Source of the DNA: Halobaculum sp. MBLA0143
Lineage (GTDB): Archaea; Halobacteriota; Halobacteria; Halobacteriales; Haloferacaceae
Reading direction: 5' to 3'
Assembly (NCBI RefSeq): GCF_041361465.1
Contig: NZ_JBGKAC010000001.1
Span: 2,852,001-2,916,000, forward strand
Length of the DNA stretch: 64,000 nucleotides
Shown: in pieces, positions 5,960 to 52,908 of the stretch
How positions within the stretch are numbered: position 1 is the first letter of the stretch
Layout: each line of letters opens with the position of its first letter
Translations under genes and position numbers: made by a program
Notes under the pieces: model-generated
The model's database searches: none
Told to the model about the DNA's origin: nothing
Seen by the model: the letters and a program-made list of their open reading frames with translations, nothing else

Positions 5960-6520
5960 TCACTCCTCGTGTGCGCCGGCGTCCCCACCCGCGCGACCGG
6001 CCCCGGGGGCGTCCCCGTCCGTCACGGCGACGGTCGTCGTGTCCCGGCGCCGTCTGTAGCCGACGACGGCGAGTCTGACGACGGCGTAGCCGACGACCGC
6101 CAGCCCGACGGCCACCGAGGCGTTACCGAGCAGGTGCCGGACGAGCACCGCCCGTCCGACGGACGGGGACAGACTCGCCAGCGCGTCCGGCGACGGCGAC
6201 ACGCCGGGCGCTGGCCCGAGCAGCGTCGTCCCGAGCCAGTAGCTGACGCCGTACAGCGCGAACTTCACCGGGGGGCTGTAGACGACGAGCACCGCCGCGA
6301 GCGCGAGCTTGCTGGCCCGGTCGACGAACACCGCGACCGCGCCGAACAGGACGAGCGCGGCGCCGGCCGTCGGCAACACGGCGACGACTGTCCCGAGCGC
6401 GAACGTCGCCGCGATCTGGTGTGGCGTGTGGTCGGCTGCGACCGCCTGTGCCAGGCCGGCGCTCGCCCGTCCACGGACGGCGGCGAGACGAGCACGGACG
6501 GCGGCCCAGCGCGACAGCAT
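5960..6520 (-). CDS. DUF2062 membrane protein
   Basis: 186-residue membrane protein. The ATG at 6520 (MLSRWAAVRARLAAVRGRA) was chosen over an upstream in-frame start. The core TPHQIAATFALGTVVAVLPTAGA, then VDRASKLALAAVLVVYSPPVKFALYGVSYWLGTTLLG, matches the DUF2062 pattern (a P-x-x-I-A-x-x-F-A-x-G motif, paired hydrophobic segments and an N-P/S-P turn). About four membrane segments are visible; the C-terminus is Gly/Ala/acidic and probably disordered. In bacteria DUF2062 domains are found next to glycosyltransferases and lipid A-type enzymes, but no function is established for the archaeal stand-alone proteins. Confidence 0.75.
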   Translation of the reverse strand: MLSRWAAVRARLAAVRGRASAGLAQAVAADHTPHQIAATFALGTVVAVLPTAGAALVLFGAVAVFVDRASKLALAAVLVVYSPPVKFALYGVSYWLGTTLLGPAPGVSPSPDALASLSPSVGRAVLVRHLLGNASVAVGLAVVGYAVVRLAVVGYRRRRDTTTVAVTDGDAPGAGRAGGDAGAHEE

Positions 6521-6658
6521 CGTACGGGGGTACGGACGGCGCGGACATAAGCGAGGTGGGTGGGTCTCGGCGCGACGATCGGACCACCACGTCGTCTCGA
6601 CCCGCAGTAAACCGCCCGAGTGGGCACGAACGCGCACACATAAGCGAACTAACCAGAA

Positions 6659-6672
6659 ACTCGAATTCGAGT
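6659..6672. promoter_or_regulatory. Perfect 14-bp palindrome upstream of gcvPA
   Basis: ACTCGAATTCGAGT is a perfect palindrome, lying about 130 bp before gcvPA and about 140 bp before the divergent DUF2062 gene. It lies in an AT-richer stretch of the intergenic region and could be an operator for a dimeric regulator. A glycine-responsive role is speculation. Confidence 0.35.
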
Positions 6673-6803
6673 GAATCTCGCACACGCGCCCGCCGCCTCA
6701 CCCGGTAACGAACCACTCATACTTCTGGACGCACTTGGACGGATATGCACACAGGACGACGCGCAGCGTTACTGGAGACAGTTACGTTCGGAGGTGCCGG
6801 ACG

Positions 6804-8147
6804 GTGAGCGGACGCCGATCGGGGACACCGTTCGCCCCCCACACGCCGGCCGACACGCGGGCGATGTTGGACGAGATCGGCGTCGACTCGGAGACGGCCC
6901 TGTTCGACATCCCCGACGAGGTCGCCTTCGACGGTGACCTCGGGATCGAACAACGCTCCGAGCGCGAGATCGTCACCGAACTCCAGGAGACGTTCGCCGA
7001 CAACGACGACCTCGTCGAGTTCCTCGGACGGGGCCACTACAGCCACTACGTCCCGTCGCTCGTCGACAACCTCTCGCTCCGGTCGGAGTTCCTGACGAGC
7101 TACACGCAGTACCAGCCGGAGATCACTCAGGGGTTCCTGCAGGCGTTGTTCGAGTACCAGTCGATCCTGACGGAGCTGACGGGGCTGTCCGTCGCCAACG
7201 CCTCGATGTACGACGCCGCGACGGCGCTCGGCGAGGCGGCGCTCCTGGCCGAGCGGGTGCGCGCGGCCAGCGGGACGACCGTGCTCGTGCCCGAGCAGCT
7301 GCGCGACGGGAAGCGCGGGACGCTCGACAACTACGTCGACGGCTCGGACCTCACCGTCGAGACGTACCCGTACGCGGACGGGACGGTCGACACGGACGCC
7401 CTCGCGGACGCAGTCGACGACGACACGCTCCTGGTGTACGCGGAGACGCCGACGGCGACGGGAGCAATCGAGCCGGCGCTGGAGACCGTCGGCGACCTCG
7501 CGGACGACGCCGACGCTCTGTTCACCTACGGCAGCGACATCGTCGCGCTGGGGCTGTTGGAGGAGCCGGCCGCGGTCGGCGCCGACGTGGTCGTCGGCGA
7601 GGGGGCCTCGCTCGGGCTCCCGGCCGCAGACGGGATGGGGACCGGACTGTTCGCCTGCCGCGAGGACTTCCTCCGGCAGGTGCCCGGGCGGCTCGTCGGC
7701 GCGGGCGAAGACGAGTCCGGGCGGCGGGCGTTCACGCTGACGCTCCAGACCCGCGAGCAACACATCCGGAAGGAACGGGCCACCTCGAACATCTGTACGA
7801 ACCAGGCGTGGGTGGCGCTCCGGACGGCGATGCACGCCGCGACGCTGGGCGCCGACGGGCTGGCCGGGCTCGCCGAAGAGTCCGTCCGGCGCGCGAGTGA
7901 CTTCGCGGCCCGGATCGACGACGTGGACGGCGTGACCGCGCCGGTCCACGACCGCCACCACTTCCGGGAGTTCCAGGTGAGTGTCGCGGACGCGCCGAGT
8001 GACGCCGAGACGACGGCCGCCGGGCTGCGGGAGCACGGCTACGCCGTCCACGTCGTCGGCGACCACCGGCTCCAGGTGTGTGTGACGGAGACGAACGAAC
8101 ACGCGACGGACGGGCTGGTCGCGGCCCTCCGGGAGGTGACGGCATGA
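6804..8147 (+). CDS. gcvPA: Glycine dehydrogenase (decarboxylating) subunit 1 (P-protein alpha)
   Basis: 447-residue N-terminal half of the P-protein of the glycine cleavage system, which decarboxylates glycine and passes the aminomethyl group to the lipoyl-H protein. Start GTG at 6804, supported by GGAGGTG at 6790-6796. Family segments: [63 protein letters not shown], and later [13 protein letters not shown], both highly conserved in GcvPA. It overlaps gcvPB by 4 nt (ATGA), so the subunits are probably made in fixed ratio. gcvT and gcvH are not in the window. Split P-protein genes are usual in archaea and many bacteria. Confidence 0.94.
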
Positions 8148-42538: not shown

Positions 42539-42979
42539 TCAGCCCGTGGTGGTCGCGTCCGACTCCGACGGGAGCGTCCCACGCCGGTCGCGGACGTACC
42601 ACTCCAGCGTGCCGACGACGGCGTACACCACGACCGCCGGAACGTCTTGGAAGAGAACGAACAACAACGACACCGACAGGCCGCCGCCGACGGCGAGCAA
42701 CGCCACGGAGACACCGACGAACACGGGTGCCGGCGACACCAGCCCGAATCTGAGGTACAACGCCACTGGCACCCCGAAGACCACGACCGGTCCCAGGCCG
42801 TACGAGACGAGGAAGAAGACGACTGCAATCAGCGTCCCCGCTAGGTCGTCGGTCGGGACCAGGGGGCCGCCGCCGACGGCGAGCAACACGGGAGTGAGGA
42901 GCACCGACGCGAGCAGTCCAGCCGGCACGCCGTACCGGAGCGCCGTTCGAGTCGTCGTCTGTGGGGAGGGCAGTCGCAC
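42539..42979 (-). CDS. Small membrane protein, paralogue A
   Basis: About 146 residues from GTG 42979 (VRLPSPQTTTRTALRYGVPAG), chosen because it lines up with the start of the tandem paralogue; a GTG at 43117 also opens the frame but adds unrelated Arg/Pro-rich sequence. Four membrane helices: VPAGLLASVLLTPVLLAVG, LIAVVFFLVSYGLGPVVVFGVPVALYL, VFVGVSVALLAVGGGLSVSLLFVLF and VPAVVVYAVVGTLEWYVRDRRGTLP. The end A/T-LEWYVRD-RRGTLP is shared with the gene at 43114-43542. Its own codons are GC-rich. Function unknown. Confidence 0.6.
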   Translation of the reverse strand: MRLPSPQTTTRTALRYGVPAGLLASVLLTPVLLAVGGGPLVPTDDLAGTLIAVVFFLVSYGLGPVVVFGVPVALYLRFGLVSPAPVFVGVSVALLAVGGGLSVSLLFVLFQDVPAVVVYAVVGTLEWYVRDRRGTLPSESDATTTG

Positions 42980-43113
42980 GGGTCGGTCGTCGGCGGCAGA
43001 AGCTATATTCTCTCTGGCCCGGCACCGAGGGCGACTCTCGTCTGTGCGACCCGGGCGACCGGCGTACGGCGGTCGGAACCGCTCGGGTGCGGGGCCTCGG
43101 CCGACGACACGGC

Positions 43114-43542
43114 TCACGACACGCGACCTGTCGGAAGCGTGCCACGCCAGTCACGGACGTACCACTCCAGCGCGCCGACGACGGCGTACATCACACACAT
43201 CGGCGGTACCTGTATAAGAACATACATGAACGGGAGCCGTGTGTTTCCACCGATGACACCCCAGAATACCAACGTCCCTACGAGTACGGTGGCCGGCAAC
43301 CGCAGCCCAAGTCTGAAGTACAACGTCGCTGGTACCCCAATCACAGCACAAGGCAGTAAAAAATAAAAAATAAAAGAAACTATATATGAAATAAATAGTA
43401 TTGCAAAATTAGAATTAGATAGAATGTAACTAAACTTATTAAAAAACAATACAATATTTGTAATAATAGTTCCTACAAGCCCAACAGTCAATCCGTGTTT
43501 GATCGCCTGTCTCGTACTCGCTGGTGGCAAATACGCACTCAT
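43114..43542 (-). CDS. Small membrane protein, paralogue B
   Basis: 142 residues from ATG 43542 (MSAYLPPASTRQAIKHGLT). Four membrane helices (GLVGTIITNIVLFF; ILFISYIVSFIFYFLLPCAVIGVPATLYFRLGL; TVLVGTLVFWGVIGG; VLIQVPPMCVMYAVVGALEWYVRDWRGTLP). It closely parallels paralogue A in layout and in the tail ALEWYVRD-W-RGTLP, but its codons are strikingly A/T-rich, especially 43360-43545. It starts 29 bp after the secreted protein gene at 43572, so they are probably one transcription unit. Function unknown; an immunity role is only a guess. Confidence 0.62.
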   Translation of the reverse strand: MSAYLPPASTRQAIKHGLTVGLVGTIITNIVLFFNKFSYILSNSNFAILFISYIVSFIFYFLLPCAVIGVPATLYFRLGLRLPATVLVGTLVFWGVIGGNTRLPFMYVLIQVPPMCVMYAVVGALEWYVRDWRGTLPTGRVS

Positions 43543-44736: not shown

Positions 44737-45717
44737 ATGACAGCGGAGCCAGCCGTCGTCTGTGAGGGGGTCGAACGGGCGTACGGCGACACCGTCGCGT
44801 TAGACGGCGTCTCGCTGGCGGTCGACGCCGGCGAGGTGTTCGGGCTCGTCGGGCCGAACGGTGCCGGCAAGACCACGCTCGTCCGGGCGCTCACGGGGAC
44901 GACGAGCGTCGACGGGACGGTCCGGGTGTTCGGCGAGTCGCCGACGGGCGTGGACCGCGCCCGGATCGGGCTGCTCCCCCAGGAGTTCGCGCCACCGAGC
45001 CGCCTCACCGTCCGGGAACTGCTCGCCTACTACGCCGGGCTGTACGACGATGCGCGGCCGGTCGACGCCGTGATCGAGGACGTGGGACTGACGGACGCCG
45101 CCGACACCTGGTACGAGGAGCTGTCGGGCGGGCAGCGCCGTCGCGCCTGCGTCGGTGCCGCGCTCGTCAACGATCCGGAGCTGTTGTTCTTAGACGAGCC
45201 GACGACCGGGATCGACCCGGCCGGCCGCCGCGCGGTGTGGCGGCTCGTGGAGTCGCTGGCGGCCGACGGCACGGCCGTCCTGCTGACGAGCCACTCGATG
45301 TCGGAGATCGAACGGCTGAGCGACCGGGTCGGACTGCTGCGCGGCGGGGAGTTGGTCGCCGTCGGCTCGCCGGCGGGGCTCGTCGCCGACCACGCCGGCC
45401 CAGCGCGGCTCGTCGTCGAGCCGGGCGAAGACACTCCCGCGAGCGCCGTCGCCGACGCGCTCCGGGACGCCGGCTTCACCGTGGCCGTCGGCGACGGTGA
45501 GGCGGCAGTCGAGGGGGTGGCGACGGCGGAGATCGGCAGCGCGGTGACGGCGTTGGACGACGCCGGGGTCGCCTACGGCGCGCTGACGTGGACGGAGCCG
45601 GGACTGGAAGACGCTTACCTCCGGCTCACGGGCGAGACGTTCGAGGGCCACCACCAGCCCGGGGCGAGCGTCGTCACGGGGGACGGCGACCGCGAGGAAC
45701 CGGAGGTGGAGGCGTGA
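44737..45717 (+). CDS. ABC transporter ATPase (ABC-2 exporter type)
   Basis: 326 residues. Walker A GPNGAGKTT (39-47), signature ELSGGQRRRACVGAAL, Walker B LLFLDEPTTGIDPAG, H-loop LLTSHSMSEIERLSD. A C-terminal ~100-residue accessory domain (HAGPARLVVEPGEDTPASAVADALRDAGFTVAVGDGEAAVEGVATAEIGSAVTALDDAGVAYGALTWTEPGLEDAYLRLTGETF) is typical of drug/peptide exporters. It overlaps the permease gene by 4 nt. Exporters of this class move drugs, lipids or modified peptides. The RiPP-like genes begin 63 bp after the permease, but from their own promoter. Confidence 0.88.
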   Translation: MTAEPAVVCEGVERAYGDTVALDGVSLAVDAGEVFGLVGPNGAGKTTLVRALTGTTSVDGTVRVFGESPTGVDRARIGLLPQEFAPPSRLTVRELLAYYAGLYDDARPVDAVIEDVGLTDAADTWYEELSGGQRRRACVGAALVNDPELLFLDEPTTGIDPAGRRAVWRLVESLAADGTAVLLTSHSMSEIERLSDRVGLLRGGELVAVGSPAGLVADHAGPARLVVEPGEDTPASAVADALRDAGFTVAVGDGEAAVEGVATAEIGSAVTALDDAGVAYGALTWTEPGLEDAYLRLTGETFEGHHQPGASVVTGDGDREEPEVEA

Positions 45718-46496
45718 GCCGTCTGGGTCGGATCCGGGCGGAGGCGACGGCCGCGACGCGGTCGTTCCTCCGACGGAAGACGGCGGTGTTCTTCACCTTC
45801 TTCTTCCCGGTGATCCTGGTGGTCGTGTTCGGCGCGCTCGTCCGGACTCGCCCCGGCGGTGGGGGGCTGTTCACCGCCCCGCCGGCGTACTACGTCCCGG
45901 GCTACCTCGCTACGGTCGTCCTGTTCACGCCGTTGTCCCGGATCGGGTCGGAGATCGCCCGTCACCGCGACGACCACCGGTTCGAGAAGCTGGCGACCAC
46001 GCCCCTGTCCCGCGCGGAGTGGCTGGCCGCCCACACGCTCGTCAACCTCGGCGTGATCGGCGTCGCGGCCGGGCTCATCCTGGGGCTCGTCCTGTCGTTG
46101 ACGGGCGCACAGATCCCGGTGTCCCCGGCGCTCGTGTTGCTCGTCCCGTTCGTCGTGCTCGCGGTCGTGTTGTTCTGTGGGTTCGGGGCCGTGCTCGGCC
46201 GGGTCGCCGACTCGCAGGACGGCGTGATCGCCGCCTCCAACACCGTGGCGCTCCCGCTGCTGTTCCTGTCGGACACGTTCGTGACGCCGTCGCTGCTGCC
46301 CTCGTGGTTCGGCACCGTTGAGTTCCTCTCTCCGCTCACCTACTTCGCCCGCGGCGTCCGGACGGTGACGTTCGTGCCGACCGGCACCGGCCTCCCGGCG
46401 CCGCCGCTGGGGACGACCGGAAACCTCGCGGTCCTGACGGCGCTGGCGGTCGTCGCCTTCGCCGCCGGTGCCGTCGCCGTCCCGCGGACGGAGTGA
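45714..46496 (+). CDS. ABC-2 type transporter permease
   Basis: 260 residues from GTG 45714. Six membrane helices; the pattern AEATAATRSFLRRKTAVFFTFFFPVILVVVFGALV, then PGYLATVVLFTPLSRIGSEIARHRDDHRFEKLATTPLSRAEWLAAHTLVN and LSDTFVTPSLLPSWFGTVEFLSPLTYFARGVR, identifies an ABC-2 membrane subunit (E-x-x-x-x-x-x-E-x-L-x-x-T-P motif). Coupled to the ATPase by GTGA overlap. It exports an unknown substrate; a neighbouring peptide is a possibility. Confidence 0.88.
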   Translation: MSRLGRIRAEATAATRSFLRRKTAVFFTFFFPVILVVVFGALVRTRPGGGGLFTAPPAYYVPGYLATVVLFTPLSRIGSEIARHRDDHRFEKLATTPLSRAEWLAAHTLVNLGVIGVAAGLILGLVLSLTGAQIPVSPALVLLVPFVVLAVVLFCGFGAVLGRVADSQDGVIAASNTVALPLLFLSDTFVTPSLLPSWFGTVEFLSPLTYFARGVRTVTFVPTGTGLPAPPLGTTGNLAVLTALAVVAFAAGAVAVPRTE

Positions 46497-46525: not shown

Positions 46526-46560
46526 GGTTTTATATCGCGGTAGCAACGACGGGTCGGGGA
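46526..46560 (+). promoter_or_regulatory. Promoter of the ATP-grasp/M50 pair
   Basis: GGTTTTATATCGCGG (around 46526-46540) contains a strong archaeal TATA sequence. It lies about 25-30 nt before the ATG at 46560, so the transcript is probably leaderless and independent of the ABC genes upstream. Confidence 0.6.
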
Positions 46561-47501
46561 TGACAGTACTCCTCGTCGGCAACTACTTCGGCCACGAGTT
46601 CGACGCGCTGGCGACGGCCGTCCGGGAACGCGGGACGGAGGCGGTGACGGTCGACACGGACGAGTGGCCCAGCGAGCGGCCGCTGACGCTCGACCCGGGC
46701 GCGGGCAGCCTCACCGTCGACGGGACGACGCTGTCCGTCGACGACGTGACGGGGGTGTTCGTCCGACACAACGGGCTGTTCGTCCCGGCGATCAGGGACT
46801 ACACGGACGGCGTCGTCAGCGAGGACGACAACCCGTACGCGGCACTCACCCAGCTCCGGGAGTACCGCGGGCTGTTCCGGAGCCTCCTGCGGACTGTCGA
46901 CGCCGCCGGCGGGACGGTGTTCCCGGGACTCGACGGGCTCCGGTGGCAGGAGACCAGCGTCGCCGCCTGCTGTCGACTGGGTGAGGCCGGGCTCCCGGTG
47001 CCGCCGTCGCTCGCCACCTCCGACACGGCCGCCGCCCGAGCGTTCCTGGAGCGACACGAGCGGGTCGTCTGCAAGCCGGTCGCGGAGTTCGGCGGCGTGA
47101 AGGCGCTGACGGCGGCGGACGCCGACGTCTTGGAGGGCCTGACCACGCCCGTGTTCCTCCAGGCGCTCGTCCCGGGCGACGACGTACGGTGTTACGTCCT
47201 CGACGGGGAGTTCCTGGGCGCCTTCGAGTACGTCTCCGACGTGGAGGGGTTCTCGTTCAAGACCGGCGACGAACACCCGGACGCGGTGCCGGCCGACCTC
47301 TCTGCCGCCGCCGTCGCGGACGTTCGGGAGGCGGTCGCCGTCTCGCCGATGCGGTACGCCGCCGTCGACCTCCGAGTGGACGGCGGCGACCACACTGTGT
47401 TGGAGGTGAACGCGGGCGGCCGGTTCGCGCTGGCGGACCGAAGCGGCGTGACGGACGTGACCGACGCGCTCGCGGACGCACTCGTCTCCGATGCGGGCTG
47501 A
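46560..47501 (+). CDS. MvdD-like ATP-grasp peptide ligase (RiPP maturase candidate)
   Basis: 313 residues. The N-terminal part has the layout of ATP-grasp RiPP ligases: VDTDEWPSERPLTLDPGAGSLTVDGTTLSVDDVTGVFVRHNGLF. The ATP-grasp core is present: K172 in VVCKPVAEFGGVKAL, FLQALVPGDDVRCYVLDGEFLGAFEY (R210), D270 in YAAVDLRVDGGDHTVLEVNAGGRFA with E282 and N284, the metal ligands. Homologues in graspetide pathways (MvdC/MvdD) join Asp/Glu side chains of a precursor to Ser/Thr or Lys. The gene overlaps the M50 protease gene by 11 nt. RimK-like ligation of another substrate is the alternative. Confidence 0.8.
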   Translation: MTVLLVGNYFGHEFDALATAVRERGTEAVTVDTDEWPSERPLTLDPGAGSLTVDGTTLSVDDVTGVFVRHNGLFVPAIRDYTDGVVSEDDNPYAALTQLREYRGLFRSLLRTVDAAGGTVFPGLDGLRWQETSVAACCRLGEAGLPVPPSLATSDTAAARAFLERHERVVCKPVAEFGGVKALTAADADVLEGLTTPVFLQALVPGDDVRCYVLDGEFLGAFEYVSDVEGFSFKTGDEHPDAVPADLSAAAVADVREAVAVSPMRYAAVDLRVDGGDHTVLEVNAGGRFALADRSGVTDVTDALADALVSDAG

Positions 47502-48510
47502 GACGGAACGCGAGGAGACGGCGTACGGGTTCAGTTGGTGCCTGACGGACGGCCAACACTACGTCCGCGCCCCGGACGGCGACGTACGGGCGGTCAACGG
47601 ACAGACGGTGGAACTCCTCCGGCTGTTCGCGACCGAGGAGTTGACACGCGAGGCGCTGTGTCGCCAGCGCGACGGCGGGGAGGCGGTGTTAGACGAGTCG
47701 TCGGCCGTCGACCCGGAGACGGTGATCGACCTGTTCGACCGGTACCGCGAGGACGGCTTCCTCCGGGAGGGGGAACCGGTGGTCAGGCTCCACCCGCCCG
47801 CAGAGGTACGGCTGTGGCCGCGTCTGCTGGCGACGCTGCTGGCCGTGGCGGCGCTCGTCGCCGTCGCCGTCGCGCGGGCGCCGGCCTTCCGGGCGCTCGC
47901 GGCCGACCCGCCGAGCCTCTGGCTCGTGGCGGCGTTGTTCCCCGCGACGCTCCCGTTCGTCGCCGTCCACGAGCTCGGCCACTACGCGACCGCCAGCCGC
48001 CACTTCGACTCGTCCATCCGGATCGACACGGTCAACGGGGTCGTCCCGGCGGTCGTCACCGACACCACCGGCGCGTGGCTGTTGCCGCGCAACAGGCGGG
48101 TGTGGATCAACGTCGCCGGCCCGCTGGCGGAGTCGCTGACGGCCCTCCCGGTCGCGGCGGCAGTCGCCGTCGGCGCCGGCGGGACGGCCGCACTCCTGGT
48201 GCTCGCGGCCGTGCTCTCGGACGTCGTCTTCGCGCTCAACCCGTTCTTCCACGGGGACGGCTACTGGATCGCCTCGGACCTGCTGGGCGTCGAGAACGTC
48301 CGGTCCCGCGGGCTCGACGCCGTCCGGCGCCGCGAGCTCACCTGGCCGGCCGTCTACGTCGTCGTCTCGTACGCCGTCGGGGCCGCCTTCGTGCTCCAGG
48401 TGGTCGTCGTGACGGTCCTCGTAGAAGGTGTTCGTGGCGTGGTCTACGCCGCGCCGGTCGTCCTGTTGGCCGCCCTCGCGTGGGCGGACGTCGACCTCCG
48501 GACGGCCTGA
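47491..48510 (+). CDS. RiPP-type M50 membrane metalloprotease with N-terminal PqqD-like region
   Basis: 339 residues. Residues 10-100 (YGFSWCLTDGQHYVRAPDGDVRAVNGQTVELLRLFATEELTREALCRQRDGGEAVLDESSAVDPETVIDLFDRYREDGFLREGE) look like a PqqD/RRE-type winged helix that binds leader peptides. The membrane part has the zinc motif H160-E-L-G-H164 (AVHELGHYATASRHF) and the distal NPFFHGDGYWIASDLLGVENVRSR (250-273), which strongly resembles the N-P-x-x-x-x-D-G-Y motif of 'putative peptide zinc metalloproteases' found with RiPPs. It probably cuts or processes a modified precursor at the membrane. Five or more helices. Intact active site. Confidence 0.83.
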   Translation: MRAETEREETAYGFSWCLTDGQHYVRAPDGDVRAVNGQTVELLRLFATEELTREALCRQRDGGEAVLDESSAVDPETVIDLFDRYREDGFLREGEPVVRLHPPAEVRLWPRLLATLLAVAALVAVAVARAPAFRALAADPPSLWLVAALFPATLPFVAVHELGHYATASRHFDSSIRIDTVNGVVPAVVTDTTGAWLLPRNRRVWINVAGPLAESLTALPVAAAVAVGAGGTAALLVLAAVLSDVVFALNPFFHGDGYWIASDLLGVENVRSRGLDAVRRRELTWPAVYVVVSYAVGAAFVLQVVVVTVLVEGVRGVVYAAPVVLLAALAWADVDLRTA

Positions 48511-48529: not shown

Positions 48530-48631
48530 CTACAGCGCTTCGACGACGAGCGTGCTTCTCACCAGGGTACTGTCGCGGTCTTCTGCGGAGCGGTCCTCCA
48601 GTTCGTCGACGACGTGCTTGTCTTCGGACAT
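48530..48631 (-). CDS. 33-residue peptide, candidate RiPP precursor
   Basis: An ORF too short for standard calling: ATG at 48631, TAG at 48532-48530, verified codon by codon. The first 20 residues are highly charged (Asp/Glu/Lys/Arg/His), as in a leader; the last 13, STLVRSTLVVEAL, hold the tandem repeat STLV-R-STLV followed by a single Glu. Such a tail, with four hydroxyl residues and a nearby carboxylate, fits an ATP-grasp-modified peptide forming ester links. It converges with the M50 gene, stops 19 bp apart. A GAAATTACTTC element about 35 nt before the ATG, in an AT-rich stretch, is a plausible promoter. Not proven to be expressed. Confidence 0.55.
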   Translation of the reverse strand: MSEDKHVVDELEDRSAEDRDSTLVRSTLVVEAL

Positions 48632-48816
48632 CTGCAGTTTAGTCGATGATGCGCGGTTTGAAGTAATTTCTGCATTTGTGTTGCTCTATCAAGGCAGTAA
48701 CTATCGTGGGGTGGAGACAGCACCGTGACTTTTTGTCGGCCCGGCGCCCAGGAGGTTGACGTGACACGACGAGGTGGAGTCCGGACCACAGACGCGTCGG
48801 TCCGGGGTGGTGTGGC
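48632..48816. promoter_or_regulatory. Divergent promoter region of the small peptide and polD2
   Basis: The first ~60 bp are AT-rich and serve the minus-strand peptide. The remainder is GC-rich, with GGAGG at 48751-48755 upstream of the polymerase GTG. A 185-bp stretch with no other ORF that I can support. Confidence 0.4.
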
Positions 48817-51800
48817 GTGAGACCGGCCGACGAGCGGTACTTCGAACGGCTCGAAGAGCAGCTAGACGAGGCGTTCGACCGCGCACGGACCGCACGAGAG
48901 CGTGGGCTCGACCCGGAGCCGGAGATCGAGATCCCGGTCGCTCGCGACATGGCCGACCGCGTGGAGAACATTCTGGGGATCGACGGGGTCGCCGAGCGGG
49001 TCCGGGAGCTGGAAGGGGAGATGGCCCGCGAGGAGGCTGCGCTCGAACTCGTGACGGACTTCGTCGAGGGCACCGTCGGCGACTTCGACACCCCGGCCGG
49101 CAAGATCGAGGGAGCGGTCCGGACGGCGGTCGCGCTGCTGACCGAGGGCGTCGTGGCGGCGCCCATCGAGGGGATCGACCGGGTCGAACTGTTGGACAAC
49201 GACGACGGCACTCAGTTCGTCAACGTCTACTACGCCGGGCCGATCCGGTCTGCGGGCGGCACCGCACAGGCGTTGTCGGTCCTGGTGGCCGACTACGCCC
49301 GGTCGTTGCTCGACATCGCGGAGTTCCACCCCCGCGACGCCGAGGTGGAGCGGTACGCCGAGGAGACCGACCTGTACGACTCCGAGACCGGGCTCCAGTA
49401 CACGCCCAAGTCGGAAGAGACGAAGTTCATCGCCGAGCGGATGCCGATCATGCTGGACGGGGAGGCTACCTCCGACAAGGAGGTGTCCGGCTTCCGCGAC
49501 CTCGAACGGGTCGACACCAACTCCGCTCGCGGGGGGATGTGTCTCGTGCTCGCGGAGGGAATCGCGCTGAAGGCCCCGAAGATCCAACGGTACACCCGCC
49601 AACTCGACGAGGTGGACTGGCCGTGGCTCCAGGACCTCATCGACGGCAACTACACGGACGACGCGGACGACGAGGACGAGGCGACAGGCGACGAGACGGC
49701 GTCGGACGCGGACGACCCGGACGACACGGAGGCGGCCACGGAGGGGCCGCCGCGGCCGGAGCCCAGCGAGAAGTTCCTCCGGGACCTGATCGCCGGTCGC
49801 CCGGTGTTCGGTCACCCCTCCGAGCCGGGCGGCTTCCGGCTCCGCTACGGTCGGGCGCGCAACCACGGGTTCGCCACTGCCGGCGTCCACCCGGCGACGA
49901 TGCACCTCGTCGACGACTTCCTCGCCACCGGCACCCAGATCAAGACGGAACGGCCGGGGAAGGCCGCGGGCGTCGTCCCGGTGGACTCCATCGAGGGTCC
50001 GACCGTCCGGCTGGCCAACGGCGACGTGCGCCGGATCGACGACCCCGAAGAGGCGCTCGAGGTCCGCAACGGCGTCGAGGAGATTCTGGATCTCGGCGAG
50101 TACCTCGTCAACTACGGGGAGTTCGTCGAGAACAATCACCCGCTCGCGCCCGCCTCCTACACGGTGGAGTGGTGGATCCAGGAGTTCGAGGCCGCCGGCG
50201 CGGACGTGCAGGCGCTCCGGGACGACCCGACGGTGGAACTGGACGATCCGGATCCCGAGGAGGCGCTGTCGTGGGCAGAGTCGTACGACGCCCCGCTACA
50301 CCCGAGTTACACCTACCTCTGGCACGACGTGTCCGTCGCCGACTTCGAGGCGTTGGCCGCGGCCGTCGCCGACGGCGAGGTGACCGGCGACGTGCTCGTG
50401 ATCGAACACACGGACCGGGTCGCACACACACTGGAGTCGTTGTTGGTCGAACACTCCCGAACGGCCGACGCCGTCCGGATTCCGGCGTTCCGGCCGTTCC
50501 TGCGACAGCTCGGCGTCACCGACGGCCTCTCCCGGACCTGGGAGACGCTCCCGGAGGCGGCCCGGACGTACGACGACGGCGACAACGCGATTCGCGCCGT
50601 CGGCGCCGTCGCGCCGTTCCGGGTCCGCGAGCGGGCGCCCACCCGGATCGGCAACCGGATGGGCCGCCCGGAGAAGTCGGAGTCCCGGGAGCTGTCGCCG
50701 GCCGTCCACACCCTGTTCCCCATCGGTGAGGCCGGCGGGAGCCAGCGCTCCGTCGGCGAGGCGGCCCGCACCCGGACGGACGCCGGTCGCGGCGTGATCG
50801 AAGCCCGGGTCGGTGACCGCACGTGTCCGGACTGTGAGAGTCACACCTACGAGCTCCAGTGTCCCGACTGCGGCAGCCACACGGAGCCGTACTACGAGTG
50901 CCGGGACTGCGGAACGGTGTGTGAGCCGGACGAGTCCGGCCGCGTCCTCTGTGACCACTGTGACCGCGAGGTGGAGAGCCCCCGGGAGTTCACGGTCGAC
51001 CTCAACGCCGAGCTCGCCGACGCCTTGGACGCGATCGACGAACGCGAGGGGGCGTTCGAGATGCTCAAAGGCGTCAAAGGGCTGTCGTCGGCGGACAAGA
51101 CTCCGGAGCCGTTGGAGAAGGGCGTGCTCCGTGCGAAACACGGCGTCTCGGCGTTCAAGGACGGCACCGTCCGGTACGACATGACGGACCTGCCGGTCAC
51201 CGCGGTCCGGCCGTCGGAGCTGGACGTGACTGCCGGCCACTTCCGGCAGTTGGGCTACGAGACGGACATCGACGGGGAGCCGCTGCGTCACGACGACCAA
51301 CTGGTCGAGCTGAAGGTGCAGGACGTCGTGTTGTCCGACGGCGCGGCCGAACACATGATGAAGACGGCCGACTTCGTGGACGACCTGCTCGAACGCTTCT
51401 ACGGACTGGCACCGTTCTACGAGGTGAACGAGCGGGACGACCTCGTCGGCGAACTCGTCTTCGGGATGGCCCCACACACGAGTGCGGCCGTGGTCGGCCG
51501 GGTCGTCGGCTTCACCTCCGCGGCCGTCGGCTACGCGCACCCGTACTTCCACGCCGCGAAGCGTCGGAACTGCTTCCACCCGGGCACGAAACTGTGGTAC
51601 GAGGACGGGTCTGGCTCGGTCCACCACGAGCGAATCGAGACGTTCGTCGAGCGGTATCTGGACGAGGAGACCGCAGACAGCGACGACTTCGGAGCGCTCG
51701 TCTCCGAACTCGACGACGTGGACGTGACGGTTCCCTCGGTGACGGCCGACGGCGAGGAGGTCCGCCGCCCAGTCGAGGCGGTGAGCAAACACCCCGCGCC

Positions 51801-52908
51801 GGACCACCTGATCGAGGTGCGCGCGGAGGGTGACCGGTCGCTGACTGTGACGCCGGACCACTCGCTGCTCGTCGCCCGCGACGGCGAGATACAGCGCGTC
51901 GACGCCCGGGACCTCGCCGTCGGCGACGACCTCCCGGTGCCGGCGACTCGCGGCGGCGCGCTCGCGGCCGACACGAGCGCCGACGTGACTTCCGACGCCG
52001 AACGGGACGACCCCGACCCCCGACGAGCCACCCCCGACGGGGGCGTCCCGACGGCGACGGTGACGGACACGGAGATCGTCGCGGGCGACACGACACACAC
52101 CTACAACCTCACGGTCGCTGGAACGCACACGCTCGTCGCCGAGGACACACACGTCGCCCAGTGTGACGGCGACGAAGACTGCGTAATGTTACTGCTAGAC
52201 GGCCTTCTCAACTTCTCTGAAACGTTCTTGCCAAACCAACGCGGCGGAAAAATGGACGCGCCCTTAGTGATGTCTTCCCGGATCGACCCGACGGAGATCG
52301 ACGACGAGGCGCACAACATGGACATCGTCGACCAGTACCCTCCGGAGTTCTACGAGGCGACCCGCGAGCAGGCGGACCCGGAGACGGTCGACGTCCAGAT
52401 CGCCGAGGAGACGCTGGACACCGCCAACCAGTACCACGGGTTCGACCACACCCACGACACGACGGACATCCACATGGGGCCGTCGCTGTCGGCGTACAAG
52501 ACGCTCGGATCGATGATGGACAAGATGGACGCTCAACTCGACCTCTCGCGGACGCTCCGGGCCGTCGACGAGACGGACGTGGCCGAACGGGTGATCGAGT
52601 ACCACTTCCTCCCGGACCTGATCGGCAACCTCCGGGCCTTCTCCAGCCAGGAGACCCGGTGTCTCGACTGCGGCGAGAAGTACCGCCGAGTGCCGCTCAC
52701 CGGTGACTGCCGCGAGTGCGGCGGCGACGTGAACCTCACCGTCCACCGTGGCTCCGTCAACAAGTACATGGACACCGCCCGCCAGATCGCCGAGGAGTTC
52801 GACTGCCGCGAGTACACGAAACAACGCCTGGAGATCCTCGACCGCTCGCTGGAGTCCATCTTCGAGAACGACAACAACAAACCCACGAGTATCGAGGACT
52901 TCATGTGA
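48817..52908 (+). CDS. polC: DNA polymerase D large subunit (DP2) containing an intein
   Basis: 1363 residues (1166 after removal of the intein at 919-1115). Start GTG 48817. DP2 signatures: NVYYAGPIRSAGGTAQALSVLVADYAR, RGGMCLVLAEGIALKAPKIQRYTRQLDEV, RMGRPEKSESREL, zinc ribbons CPDCESHTYELQCPDCGSHTEPYYECRDCGTVC...CDHC, and YAHPYFHAAKRRN|CDGDEDCVMLLLDGLLNFS, in which the intein splits the catalytic region, then QRGGKMDAPLVMSSRIDPTEIDDEAHNMD. A C-terminal zinc ribbon (CLDCGEKYRRVPLTGDCREC) ends the protein. It forms the replicative PolD with DP1. An acidic insert (~280-310) is halophile-specific. Confidence 0.95.
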   Translation: MRPADERYFERLEEQLDEAFDRARTARERGLDPEPEIEIPVARDMADRVENILGIDGVAERVRELEGEMAREEAALELVTDFVEGTVGDFDTPAGKIEGAVRTAVALLTEGVVAAPIEGIDRVELLDNDDGTQFVNVYYAGPIRSAGGTAQALSVLVADYARSLLDIAEFHPRDAEVERYAEETDLYDSETGLQYTPKSEETKFIAERMPIMLDGEATSDKEVSGFRDLERVDTNSARGGMCLVLAEGIALKAPKIQRYTRQLDEVDWPWLQDLIDGNYTDDADDEDEATGDETASDADDPDDTEAATEGPPRPEPSEKFLRDLIAGRPVFGHPSEPGGFRLRYGRARNHGFATAGVHPATMHLVDDFLATGTQIKTERPGKAAGVVPVDSIEGPTVRLANGDVRRIDDPEEALEVRNGVEEILDLGEYLVNYGEFVENNHPLAPASYTVEWWIQEFEAAGADVQALRDDPTVELDDPDPEEALSWAESYDAPLHPSYTYLWHDVSVADFEALAAAVADGEVTGDVLVIEHTDRVAHTLESLLVEHSRTADAVRIPAFRPFLRQLGVTDGLSRTWETLPEAARTYDDGDNAIRAVGAVAPFRVRERAPTRIGNRMGRPEKSESRELSPAVHTLFPIGEAGGSQRSVGEAARTRTDAGRGVIEARVGDRTCPDCESHTYELQCPDCGSHTEPYYECRDCGTVCEPDESGRVLCDHCDREVESPREFTVDLNAELADALDAIDEREGAFEMLKGVKGLSSADKTPEPLEKGVLRAKHGVSAFKDGTVRYDMTDLPVTAVRPSELDVTAGHFRQLGYETDIDGEPLRHDDQLVELKVQDVVLSDGAAEHMMKTADFVDDLLERFYGLAPFYEVNERDDLVGELVFGMAPHTSAAVVGRVVGFTSAAVGYAHPYFHAAKRRNCFHPGTKLWYEDGSGSVHHERIETFVERYLDEETADSDDFGALVSELDDVDVTVPSVTADGEEVRRPVEAVSKHPAPDHLIEVRAEGDRSLTVTPDHSLLVARDGEIQRVDARDLAVGDDLPVPATRGGALAADTSADVTSDAERDDPDPRRATPDGGVPTATVTDTEIVAGDTTHTYNLTVAGTHTLVAEDTHVAQCDGDEDCVMLLLDGLLNFSETFLPNQRGGKMDAPLVMSSRIDPTEIDDEAHNMDIVDQYPPEFYEATREQADPETVDVQIAEETLDTANQYHGFDHTHDTTDIHMGPSLSAYKTLGSMMDKMDAQLDLSRTLRAVDETDVAERVIEYHFLPDLIGNLRAFSSQETRCLDCGEKYRRVPLTGDCRECGGDVNLTVHRGSVNKYMDTARQIAEEFDCREYTKQRLEILDRSLESIFENDNNKPTSIEDFM
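51571..52161 (+). mobile_element. Mini-intein in DP2
   Basis: 197 residues (C919 to Q1115 of the precursor). Block A begins CFHPGTKLWYEDGSGSV; block B is SLTVTPDHSLLVARDG (T-x-x-H present); then LAVGDDLPVPA and, at the C-terminus, TTHTYNLTVAGTHTLVAEDTHVAQ, so the last residue is Gln, not Asn, before the Cys of the C-extein (CDGDEDC). No homing endonuclease domain fits in the space, only an acidic linker. Inteins at this PolD site in other archaea also may end in Gln. Splicing is probably active. Confidence 0.9.

Follow-up and report, generated by a model that had tools for sequence, protein, structure and literature searches.

A 33-codon open reading frame (ORF) in the haloarchaeon Halobaculum sp. 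MBLA0143 is likely (a probability of roughly four in five) to encode the precursor of a graspetide-type RiPP. Such a system would comprise a PsnB-type synthetase and, as probable leader peptidase, an RRE-site-2-protease. The ORF almost certainly encodes a RiPP precursor. Positions refer to the window, the whole 64,000-nucleotide stretch of DNA that was analysed.

The small gene and its closest relatives

The ORF lies in a 306-bp gap between an M50-like gene (ending at 48510) and PolC (starting at 48817), and an ATP-grasp ligase gene adjoins the M50 gene. It translates as MSEDKHVVDELEDRSAEDRDSTLVRSTLVVEAL followed by a stop, with two STLV units separated by an arginine and a VEAL tail. The tail holds four Ser/Thr (S21, T22, S26 and T27) and one Glu (E31), and is preceded by D18 and D20, a composition that agrees with a preliminary description made from the sequence.

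48530..48631, minus strand: precursor peptide gene (almost certainly), 33 codons, ATG start; from translation, orthologues by the closest ligases, a synonymous-change test and a family profile
48572..48631, minus strand: leader, residues 1–20 (MSEDKHVVDELEDRSAEDRD), with a conserved KHxxxxLED motif; kept in genomes G124, G058 and G460 and, more distantly, in other haloarchaeal precursors
48533..48571, minus strand: predicted core, residues 21–33 (STLVRSTLVVEAL); from alignment, varying among relatives
48661..48669, minus strand: AT-rich promoter-like box AAATTACTT, −38 to −30 from the ATG

The exact border between leader and core would fall at residues 20/21, as judged from the alignment. GC content is 0.40–0.43 across 48630–48719, compared with about 0.6–0.8 around it. 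Over 25 precursor loci, AT-rich boxes occur at −38 to −29, and the window box lines up with them; the AT-rich, promoter-like stretch described ahead of the ATG is supported. A sigma-70-type promoter and terminator scan, whose models are unsuited to archaea, returned nothing, and no tRNA was found near the ORF.

The 33-residue peptide alone served as query against 392 genomes from the order of the host. Only two non-self matches fell below an E value of 0.05, at G124:C2:398357-398443 (E = 0.003; 38-aa frame; peptide MEDDNKHLIGDLEDREVTERESTIVVSCHVIDVQ) and G058:C3:147608-147697 (E = 0.013; 44-aa frame; peptide MNDDSKHLIGELEDSQVTERESTALPSCISVEML). Both genomes belong to the genus Halorussus, and G058 is taken as Halorussus litoreus. 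The two closest homologues of the ligase, found in a separate search, are G058:C3:145565-146494 and G124:C2:398634-399566, about 1,100 bp and 181 bp, respectively, from the peptides. If roughly 27 ligase copies, each taken as about 4 kb, are spread over ~1.45 Gb, we estimate the chance of one such coincidence at ~1 × 10−4 and of both at ~1 × 10−8.

A third relative comes from G460, a 74% complete MAG of the same genus, in which contig C8 is syntenic with the window (ABC ATPase, 78%; ABC permease, 86%). Only the first ~66 ligase codons are left there, and kinase and response-regulator genes take the place of the rest of the ligase and of the whole M50 gene; homology to the window picks up again inside the precursor and continues into PolC. 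The precursor persists with a GTG start (VSVPENNHVVDELEDRSAEGRDSTHLTSIFAEPL). Across 17 leader codons, 7 differ from the window and 6 of these differences are synonymous, including TCC/AGC for serine (pN/pS = 0.17; 1 nonsynonymous codon compared with 5.9 expected). None of 20,000 randomizations gave a value as low, and the effect was strongest in the ORF's own frame. The orphan precursor beside the replaced ligase and M50 genes (L083 4322-7714) marks a possible degenerating locus, and misassembly of the MAG contig could lie behind its structure. No ligase was found in the same-genus genomes G296 and G461.

Because independent relatives of the peptide sit by relatives of the ligase, and because the leader differences are mostly synonymous, the ORF is beyond chance, and we conclude from these sequence comparisons that it is a real, conserved protein-coding gene. 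The preliminary description had proposed an unlisted small gene with a charged, leader-like first 20 residues, placed in a gap near a peptide ligase and a peptidase, and all of this stands: the leader is conserved and the peptides of relatives likewise lie by ligase homologues. It had named a lack of protein-level conservation, or frame breaks, as grounds for rejection and had proposed a homology search in haloarchaeal genomes for synonymous-site variation; a conserved peptide with synonymous leader change was found, and the proposal withstands its own grounds for rejection. Its expectation of conserved STLV tails failed, as the tails of the relatives are ESTIVVSCHVIDVQ, ESTALPSCISVEML and DSTHLTSIFAEPL. 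A functional STLV repeat is ruled out by this absence, and the LV repeat is a peculiarity of the window strain because the tails of relatives lack it.

The ligase, the peptidase and neighbouring genes

The plus-strand genes that face the ORF encode the following proteins:

44737..45717, plus strand: ABC transporter ATPase (DrrA-like), possible exporter; association not general, kept by the ligase remnant in G460
45714..46496, plus strand: ABC-2 type permease (DrrB-like), GTG start overlapping the ATPase stop
46560..47501, plus strand: ATP-grasp ligase of graspetide-synthetase type, PsnB-like by profile and fold; invariant D270, E282, N284 and R210
47491..48510, plus strand: M50-like intramembrane peptidase; HELGH at residues 160–164, NPFFHGDG at 250–257
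47515..47772, plus strand: predicted RRE-like leader-binding domain, peptidase residues 9–94; by fold comparison
47914..48507, plus strand: site-2-protease domain, peptidase residues 142–339; predicted fold matching RseP (Z = 9.7), SpoIVFB (9.6) and MjS2P (8.4)

The window ligase by itself gives weak matches to curated graspetide models; among its relatives, the TIGR04187, MvdC and MvdD models match 16 of the 16 scanned (best E = 1.8 × 10−52). A ligase profile searched against the PDB retrieves 7drm (E = 2.8 × 10−72), which is PsnB, the plesiocin synthetase (PMC10452190), followed by microviridin-type synthetases at about 1 × 10−26 and RimK at 1.3 × 10−17. In a fold search with the predicted model (pLDDT 85.5), the top 15 matches are all PsnB chains (TM 0.73–0.82), and RimK/LysX/ArgX-type ATP-grasps follow the PsnB and microviridin enzymes among both profile and fold matches. 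D270, E282 and N284 are invariant and occupy positions at which ATP-grasp enzymes hold metal. In the ligase tree, the window groups with G124 and G058 (support 100/99) within a haloarchaeal clade (100/100) that is distinct from the group formed by bacteria and the haloarchaea with TTxAxGEE cores. By profile and modelled fold, we assign the window ligase to the graspetide synthetases of PsnB type.

The M50 gene overlaps the ligase gene by 11 nt, and at most loci an M50 peptidase accompanies the precursor and the graspetide-type ligase, with HExxH and GDG invariant across relatives. The protein weakly matches the daptide model NF041824. In the predicted structure (pLDDT 83.9), the listed fold matches of residues 9–94 are RREs (lasso B1, Z = 6.2; TbiB1, 5.7; TigE, CteB, PbtF, LynD, TbtB and TruD), with modest Z (~6), yet all from RiPP pathways. 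Pfam gave no match to this N-terminal domain, and none of PqqD type, so that the RRE is seen by fold only. From this model, we predict that the M50 protein joins an RRE-like domain, at its N terminus, to a site-2 protease.

Whether the ABC pair has a part in the pathway is uncertain, since G460 retains both genes next to a broken ligase. The DrrA/DrrB-like genes have no peptidase domain, and no NHLM-type transporter was found among the window neighbours. Further along, the window PolC (DP2; 48817-52908) has an intein-like insert (Pfam Intein_splicing, residues about 939–1211), and at 42539-43542 lie tandem genes for small, paralogous membrane proteins that terminate in ALEWYVRDRRGTLP or a variant thereof; they are repeated in the same-genus contig L083 as well.

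A precursor family in haloarchaea and bacteria

Of the 392 genomes searched in the order, 20 carry the ligase. Ligase neighbourhoods were fetched and their short ORFs compared all-against-all with BLAST. Nearly every related ligase locus has a tiny ORF with a common type of leader (x-HF[IV]E-x-L); these leaders read x-HF[IV]E[DE]L-E... or KH[LV][IV]x[DE]LED.... Locus L078/L096 (MAG QS_1_68_20) has no recognizable precursor or M50 gene near its ligase. Loci with both ligase and precursor were tabulated, 24 in all with the window and Halovivax L094 counted; 22 of these have the two genes on opposite strands. Purifying selection is evident in other precursor pairs as well (pN/pS of 0.08 for L074-L076, 0.22 for L074-L077 and 0.34 for L061-L067).

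When 391 genomes of the class were scanned with a profile of the precursors, 15 matches reached E ≤ 0.01, and every one was in a genome with the ligase; because the model was trained on the same peptides, this shows specificity and not independent discovery. A profile from which the window subfamily was held out ranks its members 2nd of 1,105, 1st of 331, 1st of 302 and 3rd of 208 ORFs. The first of these ranks is that of the window precursor; leader homology between its subfamily and the rest is weak in this test, which as independent support is only moderately strong. NCBIfam models did not match the tested precursors, and a comparison of precursor sequences with PDB chains, seeking a link to the PsnA2 leader, gave no matches.

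The cores extend to recognizably plesiocin-like sequences. Haloarchaeal relatives carry TTMALGEE, TTMAMGEE and TTLAVGEE (...VTTMAMGEE... at L073; ...TTLAVGEE... at L079/L080), and single TTxxxxEE units occur in Halovivax L094, L073 and L079/L080; the precursor of Halovivax sp. KZCA124 reads ...HFVEDLEERSNAAPMVTTMALGEEGATTMACFETGC. The leader of plesiocin is LFIEDL, and an FI-E-x-L-type leader is common to it and the haloarchaeal precursors. In bacterial relatives, LFITEL and LFIDEL leaders precede TTMAVGEE cores, and these plesiocin-like precursors lie directly upstream of the ligase:

L097 4582-4761: PsnB-like locus, Paenibacillus mendelii
L101 4552-4974: PsnB-like locus, Hydrogenedentota MAG

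Some loci are more elaborate. At L061, L062 and L067 (Halorussus ruber, G074 and Halorussus halobius), two adjacent diverged ATP-grasp ligases, perhaps for two-step ring formation, accompany one tiny TFIEAL-type precursor, with tails like QTQHTSGPSDDK, and an M50 gene in a separate orientation. At L095 (MAG QS_1_68_17, 6004-6869) there are three tandem precursors with HFVADL leaders and differing cores.

For the family as a whole, we lean towards a haloarchaeal graspetide branch in which one leader would serve two recognizers, a PsnB-type ring-former and an RRE fused to a site-2 protease as dedicated leader peptidase. Its precursors would be tiny, mostly on the opposite strand and unannotated, with cores from plesiocin-like to short and one-acid. 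Within a range of core sequences that includes the plesiocin-like ones, the window core stands at a divergent end.

Core chemistry, pathway and known systems

In the three window-type loci with an intact ligase, a gapless alignment keeps the pattern [DE]ST-x3-S[TC]-x3-[ED]. Ser–acid pairs are spaced i, i+5 in all three (S26–E31 in the window, and S27–D32 and S27–E32); the degenerate G460 locus has i+4 instead. The window core has no TTxxxxEE and one acid only. The inner Thr–Glu connectivity of TTxxxxEE has an i to i+5 spacing, which is also that of window S26–E31. Because the ligase is a relative of graspetide synthetases, ester-ring formation on the window core is plausible, and we predict a single ester; to S26–E31 as the exact pair we give a chance of perhaps one in three. 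Chemistry other than esters is possible too, as several related cores (for example, ..STPITWFGG) lack any acid beyond the leader.

These acid-free cores bear on a reading in which the precursor is real and the ATP-grasp enzyme adds an amino acid to a C terminus or side chain, as RimK and LysX do, with the M50 protein freeing the modified end, as do TglG and TmoG in pearlins. Some related cores ending in ITWFGG lack a downstream acid, RimK/LysX/ArgX-type ATP-grasps are the next matches after graspetide synthetases, and M50 proteases work in pearlin pathways (PMC10885120). However, PsnB and the microviridin synthetases rank far ahead of RimK in the profile search, and relatives have plesiocin-like TTxAxGEE cores; we regard amino-acid addition as unlikely. 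A small unmodified regulator or pheromone-like protein of the cluster could equally have its own promoter and lie opposite the ligase at nearly all loci, but the combination of conserved leader and variable tail is typical of a precursor, and the bacterial ligase relatives have plesiocin-like precursors directly upstream, so this reading is very improbable. The shortness of the ORF and its unconserved STLV repeat would suit a functionless chance ORF in spacer DNA, which is ruled out by the relatives found blind beside the closest ligases and by the nearly synonymous-only leader change in a same-genus genome; the promoter position and leader motif common to the family also speak against it.

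In the graspetide reading, the precursor would have a promoter of its own and be read towards the modifying operon, and its leader (KHxxxxLEDR) would dock on the PsnB-like ligase. The ligase would use ATP to activate E31 and join it to a Ser/Thr hydroxyl in a side-chain ester ring, with S26 favoured because a Ser and an acid lie five residues apart in three loci. The RRE-like domain of the M50 protein would bind the leader, and the site-2-protease domain would separate leader from core at the membrane. The core would then be released or exported, perhaps via the adjacent ABC-2 transporter, to act as, possibly, a protease inhibitor, a halocin-like antagonist or a signal.

Plesiocin (PsnA2/PsnB, group 2 graspetides) has the closest solved synthetase to the window ligase by profile and fold, and shares TTxAxGEE cores with some haloarchaeal relatives. 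The window system differs in its archaeal host, its opposite-strand precursor, its short core without TTxxxxEE or repeats and with one acid, and its RRE-site-2-protease, with no peptidase-containing transporter among the neighbours; group 2 graspetides co-occur with an NHLM-type transporter (PMC13097080). The microviridin enzymes MdnB and MdnC share the ATP-grasp family and fold of the window ligase, with lower similarity, and the window precursor lacks the PFFARFL leader and TxKxPSD core. The RiPP M50 peptidases (EpeP/YydH, the daptide HExxH protease and TglG/TmoG) have in common with the window protein a site-2-protease domain with HExxH and a proposed role in product release; the predicted N-terminal RRE-like domain sets the latter apart. 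PMC10885120 describes M50 proteases in epipeptide and pearlin pathways and, for graspetides, peptidase-containing transporters; neither it nor PMC13097080, in the portions available, mentions an M50 protein paired with a graspetide synthetase. The enzyme that cleaves graspetides was called unknown by Makarova et al. 2022 (PMC8939145), and a microviridin leader protease has since been reported (PMC13039773).

Reported archaeal RiPPs (lanthipeptides, YcaO, radical-SAM and lasso peptides, and graspetide group 36) are likewise ribosomal peptides with leader and core, but involve other enzymes or another archaeal class. The main text of an archaeal RiPP survey (PMC12144867) names no graspetides, PMC13097080, in the sections available, places group 36 in Thermoprotea alone, and the main text of PMC8939145, which covers 174 graspetide families, has no haloarchaeal graspetides; the supplementary lists of these papers may include some of these ligases. 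Reported haloarchaeal RiPPs are chiefly lanthipeptides, YcaO, radical-SAM or lasso peptides; the present finding adds a distributed graspetide-type family. The RRE-site-2-protease is a concrete candidate for a graspetide leader peptidase, and leader-guided intramembrane release by this fusion is directly testable in genetically tractable haloarchaea. The graspetide ring-peptide pathway is best known from bacteria; if our reading is true, haloarchaea would hold a branch of their own.
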